36,362 bases of DNA from a virus, in IMG/VR virus record IMGVR_UViG_3300045781_000018, positions 1 to 36,362 of that record; one strand, written 5' to 3'. The translations under genes were made by a program, and so were the position numbers. Below, piece after piece: positions 3,966 through 35,500 of this stretch. Numbering within the stretch: the first letter of the stretch is position 1; each line of letters begins with the position of its first letter. A model generated the notes under the pieces. The model did not search any database. It saw only the letters and a program-made list of their open reading frames with translations, and had not been told where the DNA came from.

Positions 3966-6371
3966 TTACAATTGCGATGTCGACTGCCCGTAGAGCTTGA
4001 AGCCCCCCGGCGTTGGGAATTTCATGCCCTGGCCATAGTGGATCTTCGCCTCCATCGCGCCGATACGCCAGCCAACCGCCGGGAAATACTGCGGCTGCGC
4101 CTGCGTTGGATCGGTGTTGCCGGGCGGCGGCTTCACCGGCGTCGCGGATTTCGGGAAGCCGTCCATGATCGCGGTCCATTTGGTGCCGATGGCCGGGCCG
4201 TCCGCGCTGGTGAGCTGCACTGTCGACCCGCCGCTTGGGTCCGGCCCGTACCAGACGCCGTTTTTACCGAACCAGATGTAGCCGGTGGCGGTGTCGGTGG
4301 CGACCATCACCACGTCCCCTACGGCCAGCTCGCCGAGGTCGACGCCGGAATAGAGGCCGGTCGGCCCCATGTTTCCGCCAGGGGCCGACCGGCTGCCGGA
4401 GAGCGTCATCCACTGGGTAGCCATCGTGCCATCGAGCGGGCTCTGGCTGCCGTCGCCATAGGGCGTCAGGATCAGCGTGAAGCTGTAGCTCGTCTCCGAA
4501 ATCGCAAGGCCAGGGATAAGATCGACGCGGCCGATGATGACCGGCGAGTGATATCCGTCCTGGATTATGTCCTGAAAGCACTGGGTATAGTTGGAGATCG
4601 CCCCGGTCACGGATGATCCGAACAGATCAGAGATTGGCACCTTCACCGTTGAAAAAGGGTCGTCCAAGGGGGCGAAAAACCCGGAGGTGTATCGGAACGC
4701 CGTGGACGACGCCCCGCTGTCGCCGACGTAATAAATTGCGAAATAGCTGGGGTTCGGGTAGGCGGGCGGGACGCCGCCATCGTACACCTGGAGCGTTTGA
4801 AAATAAGGCGGCGACGCGCCGGGTTCCGGCCAATAAGTCAGCGGAGATATAGACCCGTCAGGCTGCGCGACGCCAGCGCTCGGTGGCCCCACTAACGAGG
4901 CTGTGGTGGGTGACCCTGATCCAAGAAGCGTGATTGTGACCGATCCTACTTGTGGAAACGGCGTGTCCGCGTAAACCGTCCCGCTGGCGGGGACGGCGGC
5001 GGGCGTCCCAGGCGCAGGCGTGAACACTGAGCTGTCGTAGCAAACCTGCCCCCATCCAACGCCGCCAATCGTTGCGGGGCCAAGTGTCGGTTTGGCATAA
5101 GCAGTCCGAGGATCATAACTCGCCATCCTAGACTTGTAGTCAGCCCATCCCGCGGACAGCTCGGATTGGTTGCCGATGGTCGTCATGAAGCTTTGTTCCC
5201 ACATTCCGGGGAAGTAGCCGGAACGCGGCGTCTGCTTCAATGCGCTTGTCGCCGCTGTGCTGACCAGCGCGATAGAGCGGGCCAGCAGGTTCTTCGGACC
5301 TGCTGGGTCGATATAAGGGTCAAGCCCCACCACTCTGGTGTAATCCTGAAACTTCTTCGCCGCCTTGGTAGGATCGCCAGGCAGCATATCCGCCGGCAAG
5401 TAATATCCAGGACATACCCCGATGATGGGCGTGCCCCAACTGTCGAGTAAAGTCGGCCACTCCAGATGAAACGTTGGCGCGGTGGTGGAGGTGTCATTTG
5501 AACTCGCGATAAACACCGTCGAAACGTTGGCTCCGATCTGGGGCAGGTAGTCGACATTCGGTAGAGGCACCTGCATGAGGGTCGGAGCGGCTGGCGTCGG
5601 AACCTGGATGTCGATTCCGGCAGGCACTCTGCCGCGCGGAATGGCGACGATCTCGACCTCCCAATACTGCTTGCCGGCCAAGGGCTGCGTCAAGATTGCG
5701 GACCCGCCGGTGCCTTTGCACCAATAGGCTTCGTCAATGTTGCTGAGCTGGATCAGGCTGCCCGTGCCAGGGGGCTCGGAGTGGAGCAGGATTTTCGGCA
5801 AGGATGTCGTGCCGGACGCCTGATCCGGAGTGGTTAGCGCGTTCGCGCAGACCCACAAGCCGGTCGTCGTGTCTTGCTTTGACGTCAGTCCGCTGTCGGA
5901 AGGCGAGAACACTGGGTCGAAGAACCACGCCGGGCCGTTGCATAGCAGCATATCTGGGTATGTATCGCCGCCGACTGACCCCATTCCAGGCACGGGGAAG
6001 CCAACGAAGGGCACCTTGACGTCGAACACGCCGCCTTGCTGCACAGAGTTTCCGGTTGTTCCGCCAGGGGCGTTTTCCGGCTGCACGGTTAGGCGCAATG
6101 TCTCCATGCCGGAGCTGCACGTCACCTCAATAAACAAGCCTGGCAACTGCCTGGCGACGCGCTGTTGCTGCATGTTCATGATCTGGCGCTGCTGGCGCGA
6201 GGCGAAAACGGTCTGGTTGATCGCTCCCGCGTAGCCTGCGACGATGATCTCGGCGGCGGCGAAGGCGTCATCTGCAGAGTTGTTGCGCCACCAGTCCGGA
6301 GACGCCTGAACGTCGTAGGAGACGGTGGTGGGTAGGTCCAGCGGGCCGCCGATCGGTGGCTTGAACGGCAT
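3966..6371 (-). CDS. large virion protein with SPRY-type beta domain (801 aa)
   Basis: The N-terminal 80 residues include a helical Gln/Arg-rich patch (RQQRQIMNMQQQRVARQ). A SPRY-like signature then appears in two pieces: GKQYWEVEIVA at residues 233-243, and GDVVMVATDTATGYIWFGKNGVW at 685-707. The latter is followed by YFPAVGW (762-768) and FPTPGGFKLYG (785-795), which match the end of phage SPRY domains. The roughly 440 residues between the pieces are Pro/Gly/Ser-rich beta-type sequence. SPRY domains in phages occur in particle surface proteins that contact host glycans or other ligands, so an adhesin or decoration role is inferred. The gene starts 1 nt after the preceding gene's stop. Confidence 0.65.
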   Translation of the reverse strand: MPFKPPIGGPLDLPTTVSYDVQASPDWWRNNSADDAFAAAEIIVAGYAGAINQTVFASRQQRQIMNMQQQRVARQLPGLFIEVTCSSGMETLRLTVQPENAPGGTTGNSVQQGGVFDVKVPFVGFPVPGMGSVGGDTYPDMLLCNGPAWFFDPVFSPSDSGLTSKQDTTTGLWVCANALTTPDQASGTTSLPKILLHSEPPGTGSLIQLSNIDEAYWCKGTGGSAILTQPLAGKQYWEVEIVAIPRGRVPAGIDIQVPTPAAPTLMQVPLPNVDYLPQIGANVSTVFIASSNDTSTTAPTFHLEWPTLLDSWGTPIIGVCPGYYLPADMLPGDPTKAAKKFQDYTRVVGLDPYIDPAGPKNLLARSIALVSTAATSALKQTPRSGYFPGMWEQSFMTTIGNQSELSAGWADYKSRMASYDPRTAYAKPTLGPATIGGVGWGQVCYDSSVFTPAPGTPAAVPASGTVYADTPFPQVGSVTITLLGSGSPTTASLVGPPSAGVAQPDGSISPLTYWPEPGASPPYFQTLQVYDGGVPPAYPNPSYFAIYYVGDSGASSTAFRYTSGFFAPLDDPFSTVKVPISDLFGSSVTGAISNYTQCFQDIIQDGYHSPVIIGRVDLIPGLAISETSYSFTLILTPYGDGSQSPLDGTMATQWMTLSGSRSAPGGNMGPTGLYSGVDLGELAVGDVVMVATDTATGYIWFGKNGVWYGPDPSGGSTVQLTSADGPAIGTKWTAIMDGFPKSATPVKPPPGNTDPTQAQPQYFPAVGWRIGAMEAKIHYGQGMKFPTPGGFKLYGQSTSQL

Positions 6372-33134: not shown

Positions 33135-33563
33135 TCAACCCAGGTTGATGTTGATCTGAAGGGCGGTGCCGACGCCGCCAGCGCCCGCCGCCTGGTCCTT
33201 GGACCCGTCGAGGCCCGCGGCGCGGATCGTAAACTTGATGAGGTCGGCGCGCACCGCGGCTGGCTGCTCCTTGTCCTGCGTGATGTGCCAGGAGGTCTTC
33301 AGCAGCTCCTCGGCCTGCAGGCGGGCCTTGAGCTTGAAGGTCATGCCGTCCTTCTTCAGCTCCTCGGCGTAGCCTGCGACGGCGGCGATGAAGCCTTCAT
33401 CGTGGCGCAGGGCGTCCCAGGTGGGCCTGTCGATGCCATAGCCCTCGCAGATTTCCCGCGGCGTCGCCTGACGCAGTGCGATCTCCAACGGCAGCGTCGG
33501 CGGGTAGCCGAGGCGGGCTGGGTCGGATGGGGGCTCTTGATTGATCGTGGCGAGTGAGGACAT
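33135..33563 (-). CDS. terminase small subunit-like protein (142 aa)
   Basis: The start ATG at 33563 has GGTGA 5 nt upstream; an ATG four codons earlier is possible. The protein has an N-terminal HTH-like segment (LPLEIALRQATPREICEGYG, IDRPTWDALRHDEGFIAAVA). A long helical oligomerisation region follows (ELKKDGMTFKLKARLQAEEL; AAVRADLIKFTIRAAGLDG), then a Gly/Ala-rich tail ending TALQININLG. As first gene of the late operon, directly before the HTH protein and large terminase, it should recognise the packaging start site. The sequence resembles small terminase-like proteins of podoviruses in general layout. Confidence 0.7.
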   Translation of the reverse strand: MSSLATINQEPPSDPARLGYPPTLPLEIALRQATPREICEGYGIDRPTWDALRHDEGFIAAVAGYAEELKKDGMTFKLKARLQAEELLKTSWHITQDKEQPAAVRADLIKFTIRAAGLDGSKDQAAGAGGVGTALQININLG

Positions 33564-33604
33564 GAGCGTCACCATATCGTGACGGCGGTTGCTCCGCAAC
33601 CTTT

Positions 33605-33727
33605 CCCTCTCTCTTTTGCTTCGCTCACCTGCGGCTGTCGCCGTCTACGATCGCTCGGACGCCAAGGCTTTGCGCGATCGTAGACGGCGGCTGTGAAACA
33701 GCAGGCGCAGAGAGCCACGAGAGAGGG
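33605..33727 (-). other. nested inverted-repeat structure in the late-operon leader
   Basis: An outer pair CCCTCTCTC (33605-33613) and GAGAGAGGG (33719-33727) encloses a perfect 16-bp pair (33639-33654 and 33674-33689) with a 19-nt loop. As RNA this would be a long stem with a GC-rich apical hairpin within the 5' leader of the small terminase transcript; as DNA it could be a packaging or protein-recognition site. No T-tract follows on either strand, so it is not a simple terminator. The open frame crossing it looks non-coding. Confidence 0.6.
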
Positions 33728-33730
33728 GGT

Positions 33731-33757
33731 GGGGAGACCGTTCGGCCAGGTCTCCCC
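33731..33757. other. 9-bp inverted repeat in the late-operon leader
   Basis: Perfect arms GGGGAGACC/GGTCTCCCC with a 9-nt spacer lie 3 nt from the outer stem of the nested structure. It may be an RNA hairpin of the leader or a protein-binding site. Confidence 0.55.
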
Positions 33758-33802
33758 GAAGAACATTCTAGCAGATGGGCCTACTTCAGCCGTGACCCTG
33801 AA

Positions 33803-33830
33803 GGAGGACGTCCGCGGTGCCGTGTCCTCC
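33803..33830. promoter_or_regulatory. dyad at the late promoter start point, possible operator
   Basis: Arms GGAGGAC/GTCCTCC are separated by 14 nt. The right arm ends at the expected transcription start (about 33828), so this is better placed for a DNA-binding regulator than for an RNA hairpin. Confidence 0.35.
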
Positions 33831-33834
33831 AAGT

Positions 33835-33864
33835 ATTGTATCAGGCGGGATCATGGCGTGTCAA
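33835..33864 (-). promoter_or_regulatory. near-consensus sigma70 promoter for the late operon
   Basis: On the minus strand, TTGACA (33864-33859), an 18-bp spacer and TACAAT (33840-33835) predict a start near 33828. This is about 265 nt before the small terminase ATG. It is among the best matches in the window and the only clear promoter found for the 32-kb minus-strand operon. It lies immediately after the stop of the secreted hydrolase gene. Confidence 0.75.
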
Positions 33865-33870
33865 CAGCCA

Positions 33871-34218
33871 CTAAATCTGGCGGAAGGCGATGGGGTGCCC
33901 TATGTTTCGCCAGCGGTTTCGGACCCGGTGGCCGTCGTTCCCAGAGAGCACCTTGACCCTGCGGCCGTCAACGGCGGTGACCTTGCCAACGTGATGCGGC
34001 CAGACGATGACGACGCCAGGGGCCAGGCGCGCTGGCCTCCCCAGGCGCGCCCAGGCTCGAGCCTGCCAGAGCTTCTTGTCATGCAGCCCGAAGTGCTGGC
34101 TCATATACCAGCCACACCATGCGTGCGGCCTGCTTGAAGCGTGGTGACGTGTGTGCGCGTTGGCTGCTGGGCTGAGAGCGGCGAGCATTATGCACGCAAG
34201 CATTACGATCCTGGACAT
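33871..34218 (-). CDS. secreted CHAP/NlpC-like cysteine hydrolase (115 aa)
   Basis: A clear signal peptide (MSRIVMLACIMLAALSPAAN, then A, cleavage after Ala21) is followed by a His/Arg-rich linker. The compact domain carries AWCGWYM (Cys35), ARAWARLG, PGVVIVWPHHVGKVTAV (His75/76) and LSGNDGHRVRNRWRNIG. The Cys...His...Asn/Asp order and the WPHHVG and SGNDG blocks fit small CHAP-like peptidoglycan hydrolases common, to my knowledge, in Hyphomicrobiales genomes. It could cut host wall peptides or be a host-derived morphon. AGGAGG lies about 6 nt before the ATG. It has its own promoter and ends 6 nt before the late promoter. Confidence 0.65.
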   Translation of the reverse strand: MSRIVMLACIMLAALSPAANAHTRHHASSRPHAWCGWYMSQHFGLHDKKLWQARAWARLGRPARLAPGVVIVWPHHVGKVTAVDGRRVKVLSGNDGHRVRNRWRNIGHPIAFRQI

Positions 34219-34244
34219 TCGGTCCTCCTCTTTCAGGGCGCGCA

Positions 34245-34273
34245 TATAGAGGGAGGTGTTGTGGCTAAGTCAA
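34245..34273 (-). promoter_or_regulatory. candidate promoter of the secreted hydrolase gene
   Basis: On the minus strand, TTGACT (34273-34268), a 17-bp spacer and TCTATA (34250-34245) predict a start about 20 nt before the ATG at 34218. A TATATG alternative -10 is offset by two bases. The match is moderate. Confidence 0.5.
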
Positions 34274-34286
34274 GGCTGTAAGTATT

Positions 34287-34368
34287 CACACACACCAACA
34301 CAGTATTGATTAGTGGTTTCTAAAACTCACACACACACCAACACAGTATTGATTAGTGGTTTCTAAAA
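34287..34368. repeat. 39-bp direct repeat pair containing a CA tract
   Basis: Two identical 39-bp units (34287-34325 and 34330-34368, period 43) begin with CACACACACCAACACAG and end GTGGTTTCTAAAA. They lie directly behind the -35 box of the hydrolase promoter. They may bind a regulator of the divergent control region, or be recombination or duplication remnants. Confidence 0.85.
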
Positions 34369-35369: not shown

Positions 35370-35410
35370 GCGTTGGATTGAGCACTCGATCTTGTCGCCG
35401 CGCACGCCAA

Positions 35411-35500
35411 ACAAAGATCGAGTGCTGGAAATACACAGCATGATCTGATGCAAAACAAAGATCGAGTGCTGGAAATACACAGCATGATCGGATGCAAAAC
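35411..35500. repeat. 44-bp tandem repeat, two copies
   Basis: Units at 35411-35454 and 35455-35498 differ at one base. Each contains one form B and one form A motif of the array, separated by CTGGAAATACACAGC. The duplication shows that the A-B pair is the amplified unit. Confidence 0.88.

Follow-up and report, generated by a model that had tools for sequence, protein, structure and literature searches.

A conserved structured RNA at the predicted start of a phage late operon and its possible put-like role in antitermination

Introduction

To our knowledge, RNA elements that by themselves alter RNA polymerase over many kilobases are very rare, and the put RNA of phage HK022 is the phage case that has been worked out. 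The putL element of HK022, which folds into two long stem-loops, is ~70 nt long; it lies immediately behind its promoter, with its first base at nucleotide 3 of the transcript, and binds the zinc-binding domain of beta'. Put precedes a long operon that contains terminators (PMC9378689). It is through the beta' domain that put suppresses termination in cis. The Q system of lambda has its control region, pR'-6S-tR', behind the late promoter and ahead of the structural operon. EAR and LoaP-type leader RNAs are responsible for processive antitermination in Firmicutes, where they are found in the leaders of long operons. The pRNA of phi29 (RF00044) is a phage RNA of ~100 nt with a three-way junction.

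Here we describe a leader RNA of the late operon in a virus that is represented by a single record, which was analysed over its entire length of 36,362 bases (hereafter, the window). Like put, this is a structured RNA that opens a phage operon directly downstream of a promoter, with the start being predicted in the present case, and it places two stem-loops side by side, namely the P1/P2 arm and hairpin P3. However, the RNA is ~98 to 158 nt long and belongs to a late operon, whereas put is ~70 nt long and belongs to an early one, and the conserved motifs ACGGCAC, CUAGAA and UGGCCGAAC are those of the present RNA. As for homology, the covariance model R2 of the RNA (see below) yielded no match in the HK022 record; with filters off, scores in its early region did not exceed 7.5 bits. 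By analogy, the RNA may work like put, and we do not class it as put. With the lambda region it shares the position between a late promoter and a structural operon, and some relatives of the present phage even have the promoter-leader-terminator layout, but the leaders that carry the RNA contain no terminator. The EAR and LoaP-type elements are likewise leader RNAs of long operons but come from other hosts and have other folds, and the present RNA has no match in Rfam; the phi29 pRNA is similar in size, and the present RNA adjoins packaging genes, but its fold is not that of a three-way junction.

The late operon, its promoter and its internal terminator

The late genes of the window form a run of minus-strand ORFs that extends to ~1 kb and includes a terS-like small terminase ORF (33563-33135, with ATG at 33563), the terminase large subunit gene terL (32951-31467; phrog_2, E 2.5e-25), a gene for a head-tail adaptor or portal protein (31458-29239) and the major capsid protein gene (28163-27090). 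Pfam and PHROG searches with the terS-like ORF gave no match; most relatives have a homologous ORF upstream of terL, 44-61% identical across the greater part of its length. Upstream of the run, on the same strand, is a sigma-70-type promoter (33864-33835) with a -35 box TTGACA (33864-33859), an 18-nt spacer and a -10 box TACAAT (33840-33835), which matches the consensus at 11 of 12 positions and is the top-scoring site of this type in a scan of the minus strand. Thus, the near-consensus late promoter of the original prediction is confirmed, and so is the placement of the leader ahead of the small terminase ORF, which is followed by terL. A 124-aa ORF (33871-34245, minus strand), which appears to encode a signal peptide and matches CHAP below the threshold, ends just before the promoter. 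Upstream of this small CHAP-like ORF, the 43-bp unit CACACACACCAACACAGTATTGATTAGTGGTTTCTAAAACTCA is present in two perfect tandem copies (34287-34368), a possible replication or regulatory site, and a 44-bp unit occurs in two copies that are 97% identical (35409-35500).

Within the operon, two genes past the capsid gene, there is a strong intrinsic terminator, GGGCGGGC-TCCG-GCCCGCCC-TTTTT (26607-26588, minus strand), which under the stricter criterion is the sole strong one on either strand of the window. An intrinsic terminator of a different sequence occupies the same post-capsid junction in the relative L005, and inspection revealed post-capsid GC hairpins, most of them with T tracts, in several more relatives, both RNA-bearing and RNA-less. 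In the 26 kb of the late strand past the terminator, neither a promoter-like site above chance nor a strong sigma-70-like promoter was found. The combination of an internal terminator with the absence of a downstream promoter means that some read-through is needed, which holds for the whole family. A specific link between the RNA and terminators inside the operon was rejected as not discriminating because RNA-less relatives carry them too; in phages of the L084 type, no strong terminator was detected by the same criterion within 20 kb.

Relatives that carry the RNA

Terminase-based searches of IMG/VR produced ~150 loci, many of them redundant, among which the RNA was located by inspection of motifs in L016, L084 (with the near-identical L085 and L088) and L087, and later in L118. 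A covariance model built from the window and L118 alone (R1) recovered L087, L016 and L084 at E-values between 1.5e-7 and 4e-5; it also brought up L005 (E 0.022), the sixth lineage. A second model (R2) was built from all six lineages, so that its scores for them, 79.6 bits for the window and 54-97 bits for the other five, are high by construction. Beyond these six, R2 had no match up to E 10 among the ~150 loci and found no further convincing member in 50 whole viral records, no further member in the isolates Rollin, RHph_TM3_14A, BcepC6B and HK022, and none in 385 genomes that belong to the same class as an alphaproteobacterial MAG with a related terminase, a search that had no positive control. 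The six RNA sequences all come from metagenome contigs. A blast search of the leader against phage records returned chance matches only, and the motif-pattern matches in IMG/VR beyond the known members (L105, L156-L158 and L160-L164) were discarded as chance hits in coding- or transposon-like sequence from which the arrangement is absent.

The terminases of L016, L118 and L087 are 61-64% identical to those of the window or L005 where compared. L016 and L087 fall within one terminase clade, and the window and L005 within another, so the independent samples are fewer than six. Two further observations pertain to these loci. First, the terminase large subunit of L118 (1746-3632) appears to be interrupted by an intein within the Walker A motif (GPVG-CLAAGT...VHHN-SGKTT), and the terminase matches of L016, L018 and L205 begin only at the residue that follows this point, so interruptions at the Walker A site may recur among the loci. 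Second, a motif resembling AAATTTCAGAC...TATAACCTTC, which may be a second type of promoter, is located before and/or after the RNA in L016, L084, L087 and L118; TATAACCTTC was not found in the window.

Architecture of the RNA

The leader had been described as highly structured, and it indeed folds far better than its shuffled versions, with z = -5.1 for the minus strand and z = -5.9 for the plus strand and 0 of 200 shuffles as good in either case. Because the plus strand folds equally well, the strand is not deducible from folding energy alone. The conserved part is an RNA of the minus strand (33731-33830), ~98 nt from the predicted +1, A33828, to 33731, in which the P1-P2 arm is directly followed by hairpin P3, such that two stem-loop arms abut. 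In P1, GGAGGACA (33830-33823, with the core AGGAC at 33828-33824) pairs with UGUUCUUC (33765-33758), which adjoins P3 without a spacer; this pairing belongs to the minimum-energy fold of the window leader, as does the P2 arm (33815-33771), where GCGGA (33815-33811) pairs with UCUGC (33775-33771). P1 and P2 are joined by two single-stranded segments that stand out in alignment A7 (see below): J1/2, CGGCACC (33822-33816), reads ACGGCAC[C/U]G in all six lineages, and J2/1, UAGAA (33770-33766), has CUAG in all six and UAGAA in five. The inner loop of P2 is variable, from ~30 to 95 nt between lineages, and within the P2 arm of L118 and L087 there are inner hairpins with GNRA loops. P3 (33757-33731) is a GC-rich hairpin of 9 bp with the loop UGGCCGAAC (33748-33740); the P3 loop CUGGCCGAACG is the same in L016 and L118 and takes a variant form in the other three lineages. 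The minimum-energy folds of L016 and L087 as single sequences depart from this architecture within arm 1. A pseudoknot between CGGC in J1/2 and GCCG in the P3 loop could form in four lineages but is invariant and accordingly unsupported.

Three inverted repeats had been predicted in the leader, of which the perfect 9-bp pair (33757-33749/33739-33731) is hairpin P3, whereas the other two are present but not conserved. At the start point, the sequence does contain the dyad GGAGGAC/GUCCUCC (33830-33824/33809-33803), which competes with P1 for the same 5' bases; the relatives keep P1 rather than the dyad, which was therefore rejected as a functional element. The large nested hairpin (33605-33727, minus strand; z = -6.4) is very stable and has the perfect 16-bp inner stem (33639-33654/33674-33689, containing GATC), but it lies outside the conserved RNA, and neither its sequence nor its stems were found in the relatives, nor was there a blast match among phage records. 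The Rfam matches to this hairpin were just implausible ones of eukaryotic type (E 0.04-5), and it was likewise set aside as a functional element for lack of conservation; it could be an insertion or an RNase III site. The large hairpin that L005 has in a comparable place is unrelated. A small hairpin, GGTTGC-GGA-GCAACC (33587-33601, minus strand), seen in both the sequence and the minimum-energy fold, is located shortly before terS.

Covariation

The MAFFT alignments A2, A4 and A5 misplaced the 3' strand of P1 by at least one column and were replaced by the covariance-model alignment A7; A4, which was made from hand-trimmed copies, was left out of further use. In A7, which is fitted to the structure of the model and thus favours that structure, 87% of the paired cells are filled by pairs, a share that falls to 77.7 +/- 2.0% upon shuffling and to 35-51% with the partners displaced by 1-3 columns. 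Shuffles give a covariation score of 0.157 +/- 0.034; that of A7 is 0.300, a level reached by none of 500. Both sides change at six pairs of A7, with compensatory changes in P3 at columns 169/195 and 171/193. In the core of P1, 5 of 5 pairs are retained in all six lineages. Most of the covariation support for P1 comes from L005, in which AUGCU/AGCAU replaces AGGAC/GUUCU; in a landmark-based pairing, the P1 strands of L005 fail to pair with their counterparts in the other lineages. RNAalifold, which was given no structure, recovers P1 and P3, in agreement with the landmark-based pairing. For P2, the support is weak, with partial covariation and an alternative offered by RNAalifold.

At position 7/162 of P1, four lineages have G-U, one has A-U and another G-C. 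Read from the opposite strand, or as a cruciform, the G-U pair of these four would become a C-A mismatch, which favours an RNA of the late strand over a DNA palindrome. The proposed check, covariation in relatives, turned out positively for P1 and P3, with compensatory changes across the six lineages. By this comparison of sequences, the ~98-nt leader element is shown to be a real conserved RNA, apparently an undescribed one. With no gathering-score match to the families of Rfam 15, it is, at the level of sequence, a covariation-supported RNA family missing from that database.

A constant distance to the promoter

In all six lineages, the -10 box ends 6 nt before the P1 core, placing the -10 hexamer at -12 to -7, and TTGA is found at -35 relative to P1 (at -36 in the window). 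Given this constant spacing, the first base of the P1 core, an A in 6 of 6 lineages, is the expected start nucleotide, with the qualification that the -10 boxes are mostly weak (CATACC in L005) and the start sites accordingly are predictions. The RNA is near terS in five of the six lineages. In L005, it occupies 4320-4420 behind such a promoter, and terS is at 5121; the ~700 nt between them hold two small ORFs and another promoter-like site. This separation indicates that the RNA belongs to the promoter rather than to terS.

Among the functions originally suggested for the leader, a riboregulator of terS is weakened by the arrangement in L005, and no conserved alternative fold, either a terminator or an anti-Shine-Dalgarno structure, was seen in the RNA-bearing leaders. 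A pac site next to terS loses ground for the same separation in L005 and for the conservation of pairing on the late strand rather than of DNA sequence alone.

Leaders without the RNA

No RNA-bearing leader contains a terminator, whereas among the ~66 distinct RNA-less leaders, 10 have a strong terminator no more than 300 nt from terS, with 0.5 expected from mononucleotide shuffles. The terminase clade of the window, seven rows in all, includes two leaders with the RNA, four with a terminator and one with neither, a distribution to be read with the fork of the clade being weakly supported (90, open) and the terminator labels including three hand-assigned loci (L015, L066 and L093). Several RNA-less relatives have neither the RNA nor a leader terminator. 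These observations are suggestive of an exchange between two kinds of elongation control at the leader, with the mutual exclusion of RNA and terminator coming from few lineages. In the RNA-less leaders of L006, L014, L019, L066, L130, L190 and L205, a CCTCYCC..ACTT-like motif is found just before a strong intrinsic terminator, within 300 nt before terS and in some cases close behind a promoter-like site; this is perhaps another class of leaders or a small RNA that carries an anti-Shine-Dalgarno stretch.

Possible functions of the RNA

So what could such an RNA do? Among the options of the original prediction, the lock to the promoter in six lineages combined with the covarying stems makes antitermination of the 32-kb operon the best fit, the function itself being inferred. 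We propose, by analogy, a cis-acting RNA at the operon start that would be loaded on RNA polymerase and work in the manner of the HK022 put RNA, a reading to which we tentatively assign a probability of about 0.43. Under this scenario, the nascent RNA would fold while the polymerase leaves the promoter and would remain bound near the RNA exit channel; the elongation complex would then withstand both pausing and termination, and a single promoter could drive the late operon past its internal terminator. As with put, the action would be in cis, possibly without a phage protein. A more far-reaching version, which we regard as doubtful, is that the RNA represents a class of RNA-only processive antiterminators, unrelated to put in sequence, that begin at the late-promoter +1 in environmental phages and take the place of protein-dependent late antitermination, with a promoter-terminator leader at the corresponding site in close relatives.

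The two conserved loops between covarying stems resemble a binding site, and in lambda-type phages the corresponding places are taken by nut/N or Q systems, which depend on proteins. The leader might, then, bind a protein or a ligand (a phage antiterminator, a Nus-type factor or a riboswitch-like effector), the loops being the binding sites and the effect on elongation requiring a phage protein; we consider this unlikely, given that no conserved terminator or anti-Shine-Dalgarno alternative fold exists among these leaders. Rather unlikely, too, is a 5'-terminal stem that would stabilise the late mRNA against 5'-end-dependent decay and aid translation of the first gene. The ompA leader is an example of a stabilising 5' stem, and P1, located at the predicted +1, has the geometry of such stems, but for this purpose the stem alone would suffice, whereas the strict conservation of ACGGCAC, CUAG and the P3 loop at ~62-64% terminase identity points to specific recognition.

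A packaging role had also been envisaged for a structured RNA. The covarying stems substantiate the structured RNA, and a processed leader that yields a free ~100-nt RNA acting in trans on the motor or the portal, as phi29 pRNA does, would fit the location of a conserved structure of pRNA-like size at the head of an operon that starts with the terminase; the stable hairpin after the RNA in the window and L005 could be an RNase III processing site. Nevertheless, we deem this rival improbable: there is no match to RF00044 or any other Rfam family even at E up to 10, no terminator directly behind P3, the 5' end pairs with nt ~65 instead of a 3' end, and a promoter-locked position would be unnecessary for such a role. 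Finally, a DNA element with motifs read as DNA, either a pac/cos site or an operator overlapping the promoter, appears highly improbable, its proximity to terS in five of six lineages and the conservation of the motifs as sequence being outweighed by the compensatory changes in P1 and P3, the retained G-U pair and the roughly threefold differences in P2 length, all of which indicate RNA, and by the separation from terS in L005.

Implications

Whatever the mechanism, these phages possess an RNA family that is absent from Rfam and starts at the predicted transcription start in 6 of 6 lineages. If the put-like reading is true, this would be a second put-like family, unrelated to put in sequence, which would provide a short, testable part for terminator read-through and would imply that phages have reached the RNA-only solution more than once.
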